Assembly (NCBI GenBank): GCA_028293625.1
Contig: JAQGOL010000009.1
Coordinates: 1 to 64,000, forward strand
DNA length: 64,000 nt
Direction of reading: 5' to 3'
DNA from: Chthoniobacteraceae bacterium
GTDB taxonomy: Bacteria > Verrucomicrobiota > Verrucomicrobiia > Chthoniobacterales > Chthoniobacteraceae
In this document: piece after piece, positions 12,386-23,582 of the stretch
How the letters are laid out: each line of letters begins with the position of its first letter
Numbering within the stretch: the stretch's first letter is position 1
Position numbers and translations under genes: made by a program
Notes under the pieces: generated by a model
The model's input: the letters and a program-made list of their open reading frames with translations, nothing else
Told to the model about the DNA's origin: nothing
The model's database searches: none

Positions 12386-13750
12386 ATGCAGTTGTTCATC
12401 CGCCCCTGCCTTATTCTCCCCGTTGTTTTCCTTTTTTGCACCAGCGCGGTGGAGGCACGCGGCGGCATTGATGAATATGGCACGAATCAGGCGGTTTTGC
12501 TCGATGCTCCGTTAAATCACGCCCCGGTGGCTGTCGACGACACGGTCTATCTTAAGCCGGGCGAATCGGTCGCATTTGACGTGCTCGCCAATGACAGCGA
12601 TTCCGACGGCGATCTGCTTGTCGCCGGCTTTGGCACCAGTCCGGCGCTTGGCACCGTTTCATTTGATGGCATCAACCTCACTTACACCGCGGGGCCGAAA
12701 TTCAGGACGAACGATTCGTTTACTTACATCCTCTCGGACGGAAAAGACGGGACATCGACTGCGACCGTCACGTTGCGTAACCGTTTCCTGAACGGCCGTG
12801 GTGCATTTACTCCGGTTTTGCTCGCTGACGGCCAACCGGCTGGGACGCTGCGCTTGAATGTGACATCCACGGGCGCGGTGAGCGGTTCGATTCAAATCGG
12901 CAAATCGCGAAGCGCAATTCACGGCAGCTTTGATTTTAACGGAGAATTCACACAGTTAGTAAATCTTGCAGGGGTAATTGTCGCGGTCACCGTGCTTTCC
13001 GATCCGATCAGCGGCCGGCTTGCCGGAACCGTTAAGGGAACCAATGTCAATTTTTCGTTTAGCAACGAGGCGATGCTGGCAGGCAAAGCGGTAGGGAACG
13101 CGCCCGTCGGCCGATACACCATGATGCTTCCCGCGCCCGAGGCTGCCGTTCCGCGCGGCACCGGCTGGGCCGCCATGCTGCTTGGGAAAAATGGGTCGGC
13201 TCGTTTCGCGGGACGCCTTGGCGACGGCGCCGCATTCAGCGCTTCGAGCCGCCTTCGTGTTGATGCCTCCCTTTGGCTCGATGTCGGCGGCGCATTGTTT
13301 GGCACGCTCACGTTTGAAAACCTGCCTGAAAGCGATTTTCACGGCTCTTTAAAATGGAAATATTTGCCGGCAATGCATACAGAAATCGCGGCAGCCGGTG
13401 CGCGCGATGCGGGCGTCCCTTATTTCCGTTTCAGCCAGACGGACGCGCTTACGGCGGATTTGCGCTCGGTTGAAAGCGCGGCGATTAACGAAGCCATTGG
13501 ATTTGGAGGCAAAGGCAAACCGTTCATTTTAAACAGCTCCACAGGTTTATCGTTTTCTATCAATCGCAGTACAGGTTTGTTTACTGGAAAATTTCCAAAA
13601 GAGACCGCGCGTCGAAGGAGTTTTAGCGGGGTGATATTTCAAAAAAAGAATTCCGGTTACGGGATTTATACTGAATCAGTTCCGGGTGGCCGTGGCGTTT
13701 GGCAAATCGATCAAGCCGCCACCGACTCTGTGACGCTCGTCCCACGCTGA
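12386..13750 (+). CDS. secreted protein with a cadherin/tandem-95-like Ig domain
   Basis: 454 residues from the ATG at 12386, which directly precedes a signal peptide (about residues 1-22, IRPCLILPVVFLFCTSAVEA). The frame stays open back to 12350 but that adds only 12 non-signal residues. Residues about 40-125 are an Ig-like domain of the kind found in tandem-95/cadherin-like repeats: AVDDTVYLKPGESVAFDVLA, then NDSDSDGD and DSFTYILSDGKDG. The remaining ~320 residues contain repeated beta-rich stretches of the pattern T-L-R-L-x-V-T-x-x-G-x-x-S-G, common in verrucomicrobial surface proteins, with no enzyme motif. It lies 81 bases after the adhesin on the same strand and may be cotranscribed with it. 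A surface accessory role is inference. Confidence 0.75.
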   Translation: MQLFIRPCLILPVVFLFCTSAVEARGGIDEYGTNQAVLLDAPLNHAPVAVDDTVYLKPGESVAFDVLANDSDSDGDLLVAGFGTSPALGTVSFDGINLTYTAGPKFRTNDSFTYILSDGKDGTSTATVTLRNRFLNGRGAFTPVLLADGQPAGTLRLNVTSTGAVSGSIQIGKSRSAIHGSFDFNGEFTQLVNLAGVIVAVTVLSDPISGRLAGTVKGTNVNFSFSNEAMLAGKAVGNAPVGRYTMMLPAPEAAVPRGTGWAAMLLGKNGSARFAGRLGDGAAFSASSRLRVDASLWLDVGGALFGTLTFENLPESDFHGSLKWKYLPAMHTEIAAAGARDAGVPYFRFSQTDALTADLRSVESAAINEAIGFGGKGKPFILNSSTGLSFSINRSTGLFTGKFPKETARRRSFSGVIFQKKNSGYGIYTESVPGGRGVWQIDQAATDSVTLVPR

Positions 13751-17235: not shown

Positions 17236-19872
17236 TTATTGACGAGCCGGGGATGCGGTAGCGCGTTTCCCCGGTTTGTTTTCAATCTCGATTTCATCGA
17301 GCCAGCATTTGGCGCGCTCTTTCCCGGGGCTCACAATTCCAAGCCAGGTGAGACGTTTCATCTCGGGTGAGGCAAAGCTGAGCTTCTCAAAGCGCTGAGT
17401 CTCCTGGCCCTTCACCGTGATGGAGCAACTCCACGTGTTGTCGGAGTCGTCTCCCAGGCCGGCACTCATTTCCACATGCGCCCAGGTGCCGGCTGGAACC
17501 TCTGTTAACTTGCGGCCGTTCGCGCTGAGAACCCCATTTTGCAAAGTAAGCGCGGGGCCGGTGTGATACGGCTCCGCGTCATCGCGCCATTCCACCAAAA
17601 GTTGGTAAGCCGCCTCGGCGCGCACATCGAAGGCGACCCGCGTCGTGCCGCTTTCATGATTTGGTGAGTAATAAAAATGCGGATCGAAAAACGGTTCCGT
17701 TTCCGGCGAATCGGCCAGTTCAAGGCAATGCGCGCCCTTGGCCGGATCCGCCGCCACGACACCGATGGCAACGGTTGCGCCCTGCCACGACTGGGCCGGC
17801 TTGCCTCCGATCGCGCTGTTTTCAAATCCGTCGTGCAACTGGAGCGGCGGCGGCGTTGGTTTGAGCCCGTATTTCATCGCGGGAAATTCCCGTGCGGCGA
17901 GCGCTTTCCATGCATCCGGTGAATTGGCTGATACGCCGGCTTTTTTCCAGTCGAACGGGACAAACCCGAGTTTGAAGGCAGGCGACTCCGGTTTCAGCGT
18001 CCAATCGCCATGGAGCGGATCGACAAAAAGCGGGTCGGCCAGAAGCGAGCCGGTATCCTGGCCGCTTGCCTGCCATTCCTTCCAGGTTTTGCCGGCGAAA
18101 TCGCGAATCGTGCCGCCGGGTTTCCAGTAGAGGTTGTCGTGAAGATCGAGGCGTCCGTCATGCCAGTTTTTGTTCACGTGGGCAAAAAGTTTGCCTTCCC
18201 CGAGCAGCACAATGTTGCGCTCAAAAGCGAAGGCGAAAAAGTCTTCGGGCCGGCTGCGGCGCACATGTTCTTCCGCGCAAAAAGCGATGATGTTGTTTCG
18301 GACCAGATTGCCGCGTCCGTAATGCTGATGGTACCCGGCGTCCTGGGTGTGATGGACCAGGTTGTTTTCCCAGAGAATGCCGGTGCTTCCTTCATCATTA
18401 TACATTCCCCAGCCGCCATAACTGGAGACGCCGATGTCGTGAATGTGGCAGCCACGGATCACCGTCCCGGGTTGAGCTCCAAGCGTGTAAACGGCCGCCA
18501 TGTCACTAAGCAATCCCCACCCGAGGTGATGCAAATGACAGTTTTCCACCAGGTTGCGCGCGCCGGCCGTCGCATTGTAACCCCATGTCCATCCAATGCT
18601 CACCGCGCTGTAAAAGAAATCCGCAATATCGCACTGACGCAGCGTGCAATCGCTTGCATGGAAGATTGTGACTCCGATCGCTCCCATAAAATAACGGCCC
18701 CCGGAGTGGATAATGCAGTTTTCGACCGTCACATGGCTCGTCTGCGCCGGGCCGGCATCGGAGACGCCCGGGTCGCCGATCTTCACGCCGCCCGCGCCCA
18801 TGTCGTGGAGCCAGCAATCGCGCAGGGTGACATCCCGGCAGGCGCGCCTGATCCAGGCGACGTTGGTGAGGGTATGGCCAAATTCACATCCCGAAAAGAG
18901 GATGTGGCGCGCTTCGTCGGCTTCGATCGCCGCACCGAGGCCGTTCTCCGCTTGGCCAAATGAAGCGCCTTCATTTCCGAGCGCATAGTTCTGATACCGG
19001 AACGCAATCCCTTTAAACTCAATGTTTTCAACCAACTTCGTTCCCTCTCCCTTAAAGCGAATCCATTGCGGGGCGACGGGGATCCAGACTTCCGCCGTTT
19101 CGGGTTTTTCACCAGGGCGGGGGATATAAGAGAGCTTGCCGTCGCGGGCGAGGAACCATTCCCCGGGAGCATCGAGCGCCCCGCGAAAATTTTCAAAGTG
19201 AAGCCGCTGGTAAGGTTCCGGTTGAAAGAAGGGCTGGCCTCCGCCGCCTGTAAATTGCAGGAGCCCATCCTCAAAACGCACGCCTGCCACGCGATGCCGG
19301 TTCACATCCCAGGAATGATACGCGAGCACATTGACATCGTGTAATTCCTGCGTGCCGAGCCCTTTGAAGACCGCCGCGTCCCCAGGCGAAACCTGCAACA
19401 GCCGGTGCGCGGCGTCGCCATTGTAAGCGATTCCCGGCAACGGCTCTTTCGGCTGGCTGATTCCCTGGAAAAATCCGCTGTTCGGTGTGCGCGCGCGAAT
19501 CGCCCGTTCGCCATTTACCCATAGCGCTTCAAAATAACCGTCCCGCCCCTCGGGAATCCGGACGCTCCAGACCCCATCCGCATCGGCCTTAAACCCCGTG
19601 ATCCTGCGGCCACCGACAAAGACCGGTTTAGCGCCCGGTGCGGCTTCATAAGTGACGCCGGAATCCCGGGGATCAAACACAACCGGTTCGCTCAATGGAT
19701 AGACGCCGTCAGCGATCCGCACCACGACAGGCTGGCCCTCCGCCCGTGCCTTGCGCGCCGCATCACGCGCGGCTGCGAGCGTCGAAACGGGAGTCTCAGG
19801 TTTGAGATCAATCGTCACCGCGCGAGCCGGCGCGGCCAAAACGAGCAAGGTAAGCAGGGAGCGATAAAGCAT
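17236..19872 (-). CDS. secreted right-handed beta-helix protein (pectate-lyase-like fold)
   Basis: 878 residues from the ATG at 19872, chosen because it begins a signal peptide (LYRSLLTLLVLAAPARAV). The open frame continues upstream to 20010 only through the repeat array. Residues about 25-105 (AAARDAARKARAEG, VVVRIADGVYPLSEPVVFDP) are the capping region typical of beta-helix polysaccharide-active proteins. Residues about 280-640 hold parallel beta-helix coils: VENIEFKGIAFRYQ, ILFSGCEFGHTLTNVAWIRR, VTLRDCWLHDMGAGGVKIGD, NLVENCHLHHLGWG, VIRGCHIHDIGV. The last ~200 residues form a beta-sandwich resembling a LamG-type carbohydrate-binding domain (HDGFENSAIGG ... CWLDEIEIEN). Likely acts on or binds a polysaccharide outside the cytoplasm; the substrate is not readable. 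The 21-bp tandem array lies just upstream. Confidence 0.8.
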   Translation of the reverse strand: MLYRSLLTLLVLAAPARAVTIDLKPETPVSTLAAARDAARKARAEGQPVVVRIADGVYPLSEPVVFDPRDSGVTYEAAPGAKPVFVGGRRITGFKADADGVWSVRIPEGRDGYFEALWVNGERAIRARTPNSGFFQGISQPKEPLPGIAYNGDAAHRLLQVSPGDAAVFKGLGTQELHDVNVLAYHSWDVNRHRVAGVRFEDGLLQFTGGGGQPFFQPEPYQRLHFENFRGALDAPGEWFLARDGKLSYIPRPGEKPETAEVWIPVAPQWIRFKGEGTKLVENIEFKGIAFRYQNYALGNEGASFGQAENGLGAAIEADEARHILFSGCEFGHTLTNVAWIRRACRDVTLRDCWLHDMGAGGVKIGDPGVSDAGPAQTSHVTVENCIIHSGGRYFMGAIGVTIFHASDCTLRQCDIADFFYSAVSIGWTWGYNATAGARNLVENCHLHHLGWGLLSDMAAVYTLGAQPGTVIRGCHIHDIGVSSYGGWGMYNDEGSTGILWENNLVHHTQDAGYHQHYGRGNLVRNNIIAFCAEEHVRRSRPEDFFAFAFERNIVLLGEGKLFAHVNKNWHDGRLDLHDNLYWKPGGTIRDFAGKTWKEWQASGQDTGSLLADPLFVDPLHGDWTLKPESPAFKLGFVPFDWKKAGVSANSPDAWKALAAREFPAMKYGLKPTPPPLQLHDGFENSAIGGKPAQSWQGATVAIGVVAADPAKGAHCLELADSPETEPFFDPHFYYSPNHESGTTRVAFDVRAEAAYQLLVEWRDDAEPYHTGPALTLQNGVLSANGRKLTEVPAGTWAHVEMSAGLGDDSDNTWSCSITVKGQETQRFEKLSFASPEMKRLTWLGIVSPGKERAKCWLDEIEIENKPGKRATASPARQ

Positions 19873-19940: not shown

Positions 19941-20222
19941 TACACTGGGAACTTCGCGATTCAGAGCGGACGTTTAAGGCACGCTGGGATGAACGCGGAA
20001 AAGTTCGCAACGATCACGGAGCAGTTCGCAATGAAGGCGTTGTGGTTAACAATCGCCGCTTCGGACTTCGCAATGACGAGGCAAAATCGAGCAACACCGG
20101 CGTCGTGCTTATCAATTGCGACTCGGAACCTCGCAATGAACGCGCAAAGTCCCGCAACGGAGACGCGGCATTCAACAATGGAGATCTACGACTTCGCAAG
20201 GGACCTTTCTCAGTTCCCTACG
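19941..20222. repeat. degenerate 21-bp tandem array (12 contiguous units plus one outlier)
   Basis: From 19971 to 20222 the sequence divides exactly into 12 units of 21 bp (252 bp). A 13th similar unit lies at 19941-19961, offset by 9 bases. The units are not copies of one another. The last nine bases tend to TTCGCAAYG, and CAA is at unit positions 17-19 in ten consecutive units (19992-20201). A second short block at positions 4-6 tends to RCG. The centre (positions 7-11) is freely variable. Because 21 is a multiple of three, the plus strand reads as heptapeptides ending FAM, FAT, LAM or similar. The last unit overlaps the 3' end of the RCC1 gene by five bases. The array occupies almost the whole gap between two minus-strand genes. 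Function unknown; a phased protein-binding array is one inference. Confidence 0.85.
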
Positions 20223-23200
20223 AAGCGGTAAGCGCCGGCATCCCGGGAGACGCGAAAACGGCTGAAACCGCGGCGGGCTCCGGGGGAAGCGCGATCTCGA
20301 TGAACGATTCAGTGTTGTCGTCGAAAGTCACCAGAACGTGGATTCGGCCCTCGTCATCGTAGCCGCTCGCGGCACCGATGGAACCGGCCGTGGGCGCCAG
20401 GGCGACAAATTGCCGGATGGTTTTCGTTTTGTTTCTGACAACGAATTGCCGGCCCGTTCGCAGGAGAAGCGAGGGCGCTTCCCCATCAAGGCAAACCCAG
20501 AGCCCAAGATTGTTCGCCGGGGTGATGTTCTCCGTGGAATTGCCCGTCAATGTGGCCGTAAAGAGCGCATCGATACCGCGATGGTTAGGTAAAACGAGGG
20601 AAACAAAGCGATTCCACCTCCCGCCGCCGGGCGCAGCCTGCCCGGTGCGGGCAATGAGCTCGCCAGACCCAAGAAAAAGGCCTGTCTCACCCTTCCCCTT
20701 TTTTCCCGCAAAGGCGCCAAGGAAAGCGACCTTTCCATCGGCACCTTCCACCGGATCAAAGAACATCGCCACCCCAGCGGCGCCGTTCCCGCTGGTGAGC
20801 AGATCGGCTTTTCGGGCAAGAATCGTTGACGGCCCGGCTGCCGGTGTATGGAGCAGGACCAGATTATCAGCCTTGGAAATCTGGCTGGAATACGGCGCGA
20901 TCCGCGCGGTATAGGAAACGCCGCTGGGACCGAACGCCGGCAGTCCGAAGCCTGAGAGCTTCAGGAAAGAGGAGGGGAGAACAGCGTGTGGCTGGCCCGT
21001 GACGGCCCAGGTCTTCCACTCCGTTAATTTCACGACGTCATCGGGAATGGAATAAATGCCCTGCGATTTGTCGGCAAAACTCAGGCGCACTCCGATGGTG
21101 TGATCATCGATCCGCCAGCGTCCCTCCGCGAGGCTGCCCTGCGCGCCAACAAGCGTGCTGAGCACCGTGACGGTGGAATTGTTGATGCCCCAGCCTTTAC
21201 GGACGAGCATCCGGAGGCTGCCGTCCTGCAGCAGGGCGAAGAGCGCCAGGTCGTTGGAACGGGAGACTTTTTTCCCCTGAAGCGTTGAGAGGAAAAAGAC
21301 GGTTGAACCGTTACCATCAAACGCGACGATCGAACGGAAGAAGACCCCTTCAAGACCGGGCACATTGCCACCGATGCGCACGGAAGCCTTGGGATTGCCG
21401 TTTGCAAGTCCGGTGTAAAGCACCGTGGAGTTGGCTGTGGTGACAGCCGGGCGCTGGAGTTCAAGCGTGACGAGCGCGGCCTGGCCGTTGGGCGGACCGA
21501 ACTTTGAAATCCGGCTTCCTTCAATCCCCGGAGCGGCGCCGCCCGCCTTCAAAAGAACGGCCCCATCACCGGCAAAGATCGCTTTGACCGGTGGAAGGGT
21601 GCCGGTTCTAAAGGTCCCGGAGAACTGGCCGAGGGTCGGGGGACCGAAGTTTCCAAAAAAAGTATCGGTCGATTCCCCAGGCACTTGTTGGGAATTACTA
21701 AGACCGGCCTGGTAAGAGACAGGCGCCATGAGCACCGTGACGAGCCCGATACTCTGATCGTTTAGCGTGTAGGTAAATTGATCTTCGTGAGCAATACCGG
21801 ATGCGGGCAGATAAGTAATCAGGCCATTGGAGAACAACACCTTTCCATGCGCTCCCTGGCTGATATCCACGATGACGGCATTGCCAAGGGCGGGGGGCTT
21901 GTCGTTCTCCAGCGGGTCAAATGTCAGCGGCTGGCCATTATTAAAAACGATATCGGGCGCCGTGCTCGAAAGGCTTTTGACCGTGACCGTAGTTCTGCTT
22001 CCACCCCGCAAGGTATAGGAAAAGCTATCGTTCCCAGGGGATGCGAGGTTCGGTGTATAGATAAGCGTGCCGTCGGGGACCTGGAGGTGCGACGAGGTAA
22101 CAACAGAGACGCCGAACTCGACTTTTCCGTGGGCGCCCTGGGTGAATTCCTGGATCTCCAAACCAACGGCATCCGGGTCGAGGTCGTTTTTGCGCGGATC
22201 AAATCTGAGCGGCTTGCTCCGGATTTCAACCGAGTCAGTCACCGCGATGGCATTCCGCTTGGTGGTGAAACTGGAGTGACCACCTTTCCATGCAAAACCT
22301 TCAGTTTTGACTACGGCAAAATAATACTTCGTACCCGGACGCAATCCCGTGACTGTGCGCGTGACGATGACCGGCAGGTTCCCATCGACACGTGTGATGG
22401 TTTGATCAATTGGCAGGGTAAGGTAGACATCAATTCCGAACCGGAATCGGACGGATGTCGGGTTGAAGTAAGGATAGACGACGGCATTGAGGGTGGCCGA
22501 AGTCTCGGTAATATCGGTGGCGGTAAGAGCACCCAGAGAGGAAATATAGTAGGGCGAAGGCTGGCCGACTGCCGCGGAACGGGAACGTCCGGCCGCAATA
22601 AAACTAACACTCTGAAGTCCGTAGGGAATATTGAGTACGCCGGGATCCACCAGATTGGAGGCCGGCCATGCCACCACGGTGCCATCGCTTTTCAGCGCGA
22701 GCGCATGATAAAAACCCGCCGCAATCGCCGTGACCTCTTTTAATCCCACGGGCACTCTGCCGGATCCGGTGCCCCAGCCCACGACGGTCCCATCGTTTTT
22801 AAGAGCCAGCGCATGATGATCGCCCGCGGCAATCGCGCTTACCTCATTCAGCCCGTCGGGTACCGCCAGGGGATCTCCTGAACCCCATGTGACGACCGTG
22901 CCGTCGCTTTTCAGCGCCATGTCAAAGCCTTCGCCCGCGGCAACAGCGACAATCCCGGTTAATCCCGCAGGCACGTTGGCGTTGGCTCCCCACGCCACGA
23001 CGCTCCCATCGTTTTTAAGCGCAATCGAAGCGTAAAAACCCGCGGCCACGGCTTTGACCCCAGTGAGCCCCGAAGGCACCGTGCTTGCGCCCGACGCATT
23101 TGATCCCCAGCCGACGACGCTCCCATCGTTTTTGAGCGCCAGCGCATGATCGGCTCCGGCAGCAATCGCAATGACCGCATCGAGCTCGGTGGGAGCCGAG

Positions 23201-23454
23201 ACTTCGCCGTGCTCATCGGTGCCCCAGGCCAGCACCGTGCCGTTTTTTGTAAGGGCGACGGTAAAATGGCTCCCTTGCGCCACCTGAACAACTTGCGTTG
23301 CCTCCGGTGGAAGCATGATGCCGGCCGGATATCCTTCTCCCCATTCAACCGCCTTGTAAACTCCGGGCTCGGCATGCGCCGCGCCGGGTCCAAAAAAACC
23401 GGCGAGCATCGCGACAAACAGGCAGCGAATCGGCAAAGTAAGAGAATTTTTCAT
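20218..23454 (-). CDS. secreted RCC1-repeat protein with fibronectin- and cadherin-like domains
   Basis: 1,078 residues from the ATG at 23454, which starts a signal peptide (IRCLFVAMLAGFFGPGAAHA). Residues about 50-300 are seven RCC1-type beta-propeller repeats of 35-42 residues with the pattern V-x-A-I-A-A-G-x-x-H-A-L-A-L-K-N-D-G-T-V-V-x-W-G. A fibronectin-III-like domain follows (ITETSATLNAVVYPYFNPTS, TVTGLRPGTKYYFAVV). Two Ig/cadherin-like segments come next, each with QGAHGKV and an F-S/T-Y-T-L core. The last ~450 residues are a beta-rich region with QVPGESTDTFFGNF and repeated G-D-G-A-V/L motifs, resembling DUF7453-type repeats. No catalytic residues are evident; extracellular binding is likely. 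A palindrome TGCATTGTAAATGCA at 23533-23547, about 80 bases upstream, could be an operator. Confidence 0.8.
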   Translation of the reverse strand: MKNSLTLPIRCLFVAMLAGFFGPGAAHAEPGVYKAVEWGEGYPAGIMLPPEATQVVQVAQGSHFTVALTKNGTVLAWGTDEHGEVSAPTELDAVIAIAAGADHALALKNDGSVVGWGSNASGASTVPSGLTGVKAVAAGFYASIALKNDGSVVAWGANANVPAGLTGIVAVAAGEGFDMALKSDGTVVTWGSGDPLAVPDGLNEVSAIAAGDHHALALKNDGTVVGWGTGSGRVPVGLKEVTAIAAGFYHALALKSDGTVVAWPASNLVDPGVLNIPYGLQSVSFIAAGRSRSAAVGQPSPYYISSLGALTATDITETSATLNAVVYPYFNPTSVRFRFGIDVYLTLPIDQTITRVDGNLPVIVTRTVTGLRPGTKYYFAVVKTEGFAWKGGHSSFTTKRNAIAVTDSVEIRSKPLRFDPRKNDLDPDAVGLEIQEFTQGAHGKVEFGVSVVTSSHLQVPDGTLIYTPNLASPGNDSFSYTLRGGSRTTVTVKSLSSTAPDIVFNNGQPLTFDPLENDKPPALGNAVIVDISQGAHGKVLFSNGLITYLPASGIAHEDQFTYTLNDQSIGLVTVLMAPVSYQAGLSNSQQVPGESTDTFFGNFGPPTLGQFSGTFRTGTLPPVKAIFAGDGAVLLKAGGAAPGIEGSRISKFGPPNGQAALVTLELQRPAVTTANSTVLYTGLANGNPKASVRIGGNVPGLEGVFFRSIVAFDGNGSTVFFLSTLQGKKVSRSNDLALFALLQDGSLRMLVRKGWGINNSTVTVLSTLVGAQGSLAEGRWRIDDHTIGVRLSFADKSQGIYSIPDDVVKLTEWKTWAVTGQPHAVLPSSFLKLSGFGLPAFGPSGVSYTARIAPYSSQISKADNLVLLHTPAAGPSTILARKADLLTSGNGAAGVAMFFDPVEGADGKVAFLGAFAGKKGKGETGLFLGSGELIARTGQAAPGGGRWNRFVSLVLPNHRGIDALFTATLTGNSTENITPANNLGLWVCLDGEAPSLLLRTGRQFVVRNKTKTIRQFVALAPTAGSIGAASGYDDEGRIHVLVTFDDNTESFIEIALPPEPAAVSAVFASPGMPALTAS

Positions 23455-23582
23455 GGGAGAACGGGAGGAAAGCGACACAAATGCGTGGCTCGTGGTAGCG
23501 TTAAACGTAAAGCCACACTCCACAAATATGAATGCATTGTAAATGCAGTTAATGGGATTCTATGAATCGTTTCGGTACAAAC

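Follow-up and report, generated by a model that had tools for sequence, protein, structure and literature searches.

Degenerate Arrays of 21-bp Direct Repeats Upstream of Genes in Chthoniobacteraceae: Possible Helically Phased Sites for a DNA-Binding Protein

The Locus and Its Neighboring Genes

The window analyzed here is a stretch of 64,000 nucleotides (G000:C24:1-64000) from the host genome, G000, which comprises 6.83 Mb in 43 contigs. Two minus-strand genes, one encoding a right-handed beta-helix protein and the other a protein with RCC1 repeats and bacterial Ig domains, are separated by a gap that is filled by an array of degenerate 21-bp units, here called A1 (Table 1). As the first-pass annotation had stated, the array fills the space between the two genes, and it reaches the RCC1-repeat gene at its stop codon (20218-20220). 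The start of the beta-helix gene was set at the ATG preceding a putative signal peptide; the TTG start given in the list of open reading frames (20010) falls inside A1. Scans of A1 for promoters and terminators found nothing.

Searching the host genome with the RCC1/Ig protein gave eight additional matches with E values of 1e-40 or lower; not every match is to the RCC1 part, and four of them share one open frame of about 2800 residues (G000:C6:331606-337371). The beta-helix orthologue of Chthoniobacter flavus (NZ_ABVL01000008.1; loci L039 and L042) was recovered as two overlapping six-frame matches, to residues 6-640 and 631-875, and may be frameshifted or split.

Table 1. Positions of the repeat arrays and neighboring genes; plain coordinates are those of the window.
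Feature	Location	Strand	Description
Beta-helix protein gene	17236..19872	-	Right-handed beta-helix; downstream of the gap
Unit-like stretch CTTCGCGATT	19941..19961	+	Out of phase with A1 (by eye)
A1 edge unit	19971..19991	+	In register, without the CAA core
A1 core, ten 21-bp units	19992..20201	+	CAA at the same register in each (anchors 20008 + 21k); rough consensus, written from the core, CAAYG-n-CG-n-CG-T-n-GG-R-CTY-nR
A1 edge unit	20202..20222	+	In register, with CTA as its core; runs into the RCC1-repeat gene's stop codon
RCC1-repeat and bacterial Ig-domain protein gene	20218..23457	-	Upstream of the gap
A10	G000:C43, anchors 12765 to 13017		13 CAA cores in exact 21-bp steps; between ApbE and aconitase genes
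A11	G010:C57, L259:427-741		21-bp units; upstream of an alpha-L-fucosidase gene
A2	C31:64198-64407		Upstream of fabF; judged non-coding
A3	C31:540227-540520		Judged non-coding
A4	C6:42314-42523		21-bp dyad units CCTGTT-N5-AACAGG; judged non-coding
A5	C11:150582-150749		Judged non-coding
A7	C27:34773-35024		Judged non-coding
A8	C40:134430-134723		42-bp array; judged non-coding
A9	C39:44902-45049		42-bp units; judged non-coding
A0	C31:22393-22652		20 bp with slips; judged non-coding
G048 array	L031:4324-4660 (G048:C103; L127 is the same contig; SXWH01000134.1)		21/42 bp; upstream of the beta-helix orthologue

Periodicity and Conservation Within A1

The array is real, and no other place in the window comes near its 21-bp periodicity: over 12 units, the column information for period 21 reaches a maximum of 17.3 bits (start 19989), against 9.8 bits at the next-best place and, across the window, a mean of 5.6 and a standard deviation of 1.2. 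Per-base information in A1 is 0.82 at best for period 21 and does not exceed 0.37 for periods 18-20, 22-24, 27, 33, and 42, and in the 1.99-Mb period scan of the host genome A1 scored z 8.7 with 168-base windows and 9.7 with 252-base windows. TRF failed to detect A1 even at score 30. Degenerate 21-bp units also set the array apart from the definition of a CRISPR, in which near-identical repeats of 25-36 nt alternate with unique spacers.

CAA stands in register in all ten consecutive core units, in steps of exactly 21 bp, where its background outside the arrays is 0.017-0.022 per base; the earlier count of ten successive units with CAA (19992-20201) was thus correct. Twelve 21-bp registers had been proposed, and the phase is indeed kept through all of them, but the first and last have no CAA; the outlier reported at 19941-19961 is unit-like and, as judged by eye, shifted by 9 or 12 bp from the phase of the array. 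Of positions 7-11 of the unit as first described, which had been taken to vary almost freely, position 11 is not free, being A in 8 of 11 units. The view of A1 as a phased motif, and not as slipped copies, was supported: similarity is flat against the distance between units, neighbors being no more alike than others, and columns are unequally conserved (p 0.008 with 11 units, 0.012 with 10) in tests which presuppose a star-like decay, that is, unrelated units. A heptamer sub-period leaves almost no excess at lags 7 and 14 (0.04 and 0.01), but A1 may have a weak seven-base component, since there is an excess of 0.06-0.07 at lags 35, 56, 91, and 98 and period 14 ranks second in the z scan of the array (6.3 and 7.9).

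Related Arrays at Two Unrelated Loci

A 42-column sequence model of A1 (R1) was searched against 117 genomes of the order, the host included. Beyond A1 itself, it gave two overlapping matches in the host genome on contig C43 (E 0.004 and 0.012) and a single match in each of four other genomes (E 0.006-0.081), none of the latter within a dominant 21-bp array. The C43 matches belong to a sister array, A10, which stands upstream of an aconitase gene and contains an exact internal repeat of 34 bp. A model of A1 and A10 together (R2) was searched in 40 genomes of the family; single R2 matches mean little, because 24 of the 40 genomes have one at E 0.1 or less. A period scan of 33 loci drawn from the R1 and R2 matches found one clear new 21-bp array (z 10.1), A11, in the genome G010 of another genus of the family, whose two-unit R2 match (E 0.067) would not have stood out alone. 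Seven of the 12 units of A11 have CAA, and 11 have CA, in the 21-bp register. The profile scan proposed in the first-pass annotation has therefore found arrays with similar blocks elsewhere, both in the host genome and in a relative.

The relationship of A10 and A11 to A1 persists when the units that led to their discovery are left out. All nine A10 units outside the R1 matches keep CAA in register, and their identity to A1 is 0.46, where rotated controls have a mean of 0.24 and a maximum of 0.36; the nine A11 units outside the three under the model match reach 0.42 against A1 (rotated maximum 0.31) and 0.43 against A10 (rotated maximum 0.32). Mean unit identity is 0.51 for A1/A10, 0.43 for A1/A11 and 0.45 for A10/A11, and within arrays 0.48 (A1), 0.58 (A10), and 0.51 (A11). 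The A10 matrix scores 35.6 bits in A11, against at most 8.7 for the reversed matrix anywhere in the sequence scanned.

Columns are unequally conserved in A10 (p 0.00005) and A11 (p 0.0026), and for the three arrays pooled none of 20000 simulations reached the observed inequality. Beyond CAA, the choice of conserved columns agrees only weakly across arrays, with rank correlations of 0.38, 0.18, and 0.17 where rotated controls reach 0.45-0.59. Similarity is flat with distance in A10 and drops with distance in A11. No common order of units was seen (best A1/A10 offset 0.50, mean 0.47), and blastn found nothing shared among the flanks of the three loci beyond matches of 11-18 bp (E 0.09 or higher). 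All three arrays lie about 100-400 bp upstream of a gene; A1 and A10 are antisense to it and A11 is sense, and the genes have no common function.

Distribution and Turnover

A 67-column model of A1, A10, and A11 (R3) was built from alignment A6, the model alignments A5 (slipped in register) and A3 having been dropped. Its scores of 32-50 bits in A1 and A10, and of 37.9 bits in A11, follow from the way it was built. Outside the two array-bearing genomes its best scores were 20.9 bits among the 40 family genomes and 24.1 bits in a phylum sample of 288 genomes with stricter filters, which we take to be chance or coding sequence; further matches in G010 reach 25.6, 23.0, and 20.7 bits on C5, C20, and C17, as scores alone. 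Six loci with weak model matches (L274, L275, L277, L279, L286, and L289) were rejected as coding-like, with long open frames. An A1 pattern allowing up to three mismatches matched the host genome nine times, three of them inside A1, and the reversed pattern four times. Direct DNA similarity of A1 to relatives was limited to short matches, the best of them (E 4e-4) lying in G017 at a place where no array appears in the period scan.

A conserved location, which had been suggested as a test, was not found: the aconitase gene is present in two genomes of the host's genus, G001 and G003, as well as in G010, and no model match was reported beside it; G002 gave no aconitase match. The beta-helix gene is found in 11 other genomes of the family, and only in G048 was an array seen upstream of it, although in two of the 11 (L040 and L041) the match stops short of the start of the gene. 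We rejected the G048 array as the orthologous site of A1; its consensus is unrelated to that of A1 (z -0.46), and it is therefore read as coincidence or a shared habit and not as homology. For fabF, present in 37 other genomes, no score comparable to that of A2 was found in the 29 loci shown.

Other Arrays with a Two-Turn Period

The raw period scan covered 1,994,433 bases, or 29% of the host genome. After an automatic coding filter, nine non-coding arrays remained at z 6 or higher, and seven of the nine have a period of 20, 21, or 42 (five at 21, one each at 42 and 20); the other two have periods of 36, a CRISPR, and 24, which we think is a glycine-rich gene. A2 and A9 were removed by the filter and retained by eye.

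Three shuffles of the host sequence preserving 2-mers gave 39-62 hits at z 5 or higher, none of them at 21 or 42 and 2-8 at period 20, and 1-4 hits at z 6 or higher (maximum 7.2); such shuffles understate multiples of three, because they erase codon periodicity. Five 3-mer shuffles, in which codon periodicity is kept, gave 31-57 hits at z 5 or higher and 3-6 at z 6 or higher, mostly at period 15 and up to 9.9; at the periods of interest they yielded, over all five, four hits at 21, one at 42, and six at 20, and none of these reached z 6. Since none of the eight shuffles has a hit at 21 or 42 with z 6 or higher, the excess of these periods at z 6 or higher is not produced by shuffling, whereas high z at short periods is. 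Applied to 648 kb from relatives, the scan found a single clear array of this sort, the 42/21-bp array of G048, and a period-21 hit at L136 (z 6.5); C. flavus (318 kb) had none at period 20, 21, or 42.

Among the tested pairs of A1-A9, the consensus sequences show no relationship, apart from A8/A9 as a possible exception. Similarity is flat against distance in A3, A5, A7, and A8, and drops in A0, A4, A6, and A9 and, over long range, in A2; for A0, A2, A3, A7, and A8, the inequality among columns does not reach significance at 0.05. Units are dyad-symmetric in four of ten arrays (A4, A5, A9, and A0), so that a single class-wide dyad was rejected. Some changes between the A4 dyad units are paired or G-T-compatible (by eye), and the A9 consensus contains an inverted repeat with 11-bp arms. 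A candidate sister of A0 at C27:31815 reads, by eye, as a terminator-like hairpin. A8 stands at the 3' end of a Csb2-like gene, between a CRISPR array with a 36-bp repeat and Cas-like genes about 10 kb away (G000:C40, about 123600-125330 and 134750-139721); these genes are candidates for type I-U/I-G Cas proteins, which they resemble.

Interpretation of the A1-Type Arrays

We read A1 as a row of helically phased direct-repeat sites for an oligomerizing DNA-binding protein, forming an upstream cis element, and put the probability of this reading at roughly 0.45. Whole-turn spacing is kept in A1 (10 units), in A10 (13), and in the CA run of A11 (11 of 12), and the core is conserved above the rest of the unit, with CAA in 10/10, 13/13, and 7/12 units, respectively. 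Each 21-bp unit, equal to two helical turns, would expose its CAAY core, and the CG..CG and CTY blocks, which are weaker, on a single face of the DNA; because the blocks repeat on that face, protein subunits on successive units would touch, and the whole row could be bound even if single units were weak. At about 100-400 bp before a gene, such a row would act in cis, as a regulatory or a DNA-organizing element. We infer the binding, the oligomerization of the protein, and the effect on the next gene from the arrangement of the units. Several results count against this reading: outside CAA the conserved columns agree only weakly between arrays, A11 keeps the full CAA in just 7 of 12 units and loses similarity with distance, orientation and location vary, the neighboring genes share no function, the conservation test presupposes unrelated units although A10 has its internal 34-bp repeat, the A11 match was weak by itself, and the promoter scan was empty. 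The interpretation given in the first-pass annotation is partly supported.

Minisatellite birth and decay is the main rival, and a possible if somewhat unlikely one: a short homogeneous tandem array would arise from time to time, through replication slippage or a comparable mechanism that favors two-turn units, and then decay without function. Bacterial minisatellites (VNTR) are likewise tandem units in intergenic DNA; several of the arrays have unrelated consensus sequences, at the same gene in relatives they were not found, five (A0, A2, A3, A7, and A8) lack a significant column inequality, and even a similarity that is flat against distance would fit a single rapid expansion followed by decay. 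The A1 family fits such a history less well. A1 was missed by TRF, and its core is invariant over ten units. Minisatellites are marked by adjacent units that are most alike and by copy numbers that vary among strains; adjacent units are not more alike in A1, but they are in A11. CAA is invariant in the core units of A1 and A10, yet these units are only about 50-60% alike, and the A1-type unit is present in another genus. Indels are expected alongside substitutions in decaying repeats, and by the usual ratio between them decay this deep should leave some; about nine of the 12 steps in A10 were unselected by the discovery matches, and all are exactly 21 bp. A11 weighs less in this respect, since its choice was guided in part by a period scan over eight units. 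The invariant core and the exact phase together argue against a minisatellite for the family of A1, A10, and A11.

A small non-autonomous mobile element, moving with its array from site to site, would account for the presence of the A1-type unit in two genera and at three loci unrelated to one another, but appears improbable: the flanks share only the short matches noted above, A1 and A10 have no unit order in common, and no element ends or target duplications were recognized at the three loci. Nor does A1 resemble REP or MITE elements, which have palindromic units or terminal inverted repeats, and shared ends; A1 has no dyad, and the loci share no flanks beyond the short matches.

Still less probable is an RNA element, transcribed as a row of small hairpins or guides in the manner of TIGR arrays. 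The dyad-symmetric units of A4, A5, A9, and A0 would suit it, but the dyad test of A1 was negative (p 0.80), neither strand of A1 shows an excess of folding (z -0.04 and -0.29), and Rfam gave no match to A1. The Nop domain that TIGR systems need had no match in the host genome at E 0.001, in a search that detected the family in 4 of 14 controls.

A coding repeat of heptapeptides is very unlikely: A1 has two stop-free plus-strand frames, not the single one reported earlier, and one of them has gene-like codon usage (0.22-0.35 bits per codon, coding median 0.31), but this measure discriminates poorly, as a CRISPR array reaches 0.20, the first listed start of that frame is not before 20042, the other frame has no match in Pfam, and pN/pS over unit pairs, which varies with the unit set used, is 0.80-1.15 in A1, 0.87-1.27 in A10, and 0.92 in A11, without purifying selection in the open frames.

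Comparison with Known Systems and Implications

The arrays of plasmid iterons and partition sites are tandem direct repeats of about 20-22 bp, or 43 bp in some partition sites, bound by an oligomerizing protein. A1 has tandem direct repeats of nearly the same unit size, whereas A1-type arrays front ordinary genes and their units are far more degenerate; no replication or partition gene was found among the flanking genes scanned for A1, A10, and A11, and since these include no replication gene the name iteron is not earned. TIGR arrays consist of two alternating repeats of 8-12 nt with 9-nt spacers, giving 36-nt RNAs, and share with A1 the combination of conserved blocks and variable parts in tandem units (PMC12045711); they differ in needing a Tas gene with the Nop domain.

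The nearest worked-out parallel that we found is BvgA~P. Its dimers bind along one DNA face every 22 bp, or two helical turns, with weak sites adding up, and the rows at Bordetella promoters are, like A1, degenerate two-turn sites on one face upstream of a gene (PMC7250471). There are six head-to-head dimers at 22 bp in that system, whereas A1-type arrays have at least 10 direct repeats at 21 bp and A1 has no dyad; by analogy, A1-type arrays may work in a like manner with direct 21-bp units. No such arrays are described in the portions consulted of the open-licence literature on Verrucomicrobia or Chthoniobacter and on degenerate, 21-bp, or helically periodic tandem repeats, nor in the portions of PMC4060949 and PMC4210602; this absence is weak evidence for the novelty of A1-type arrays, as it covers open-licence papers, in part.

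More tentatively, the A1 family could belong to an undescribed class of dispersed two-turn arrays in some Chthoniobacteraceae, with about 8-14 degenerate units of exactly 21 (or 42) bp and several consensus families, each read by its own polymerizing DNA-binding protein, whose loci turn over while phase and core are kept. If true, this would make the arrays a system of cis elements that is modular and spans the chromosome. Should the arrays be neutral, they would point to a process of tandem duplication that favors two helical turns, itself unusual. If a protein does read the rows, one genome would hold several natural and varied arrays with a fixed helical phase, a test bed for how helical phasing lets weak sites add up, and the arrays would be the sign of a new regulator or DNA-organizing protein in a little-studied group of bacteria.
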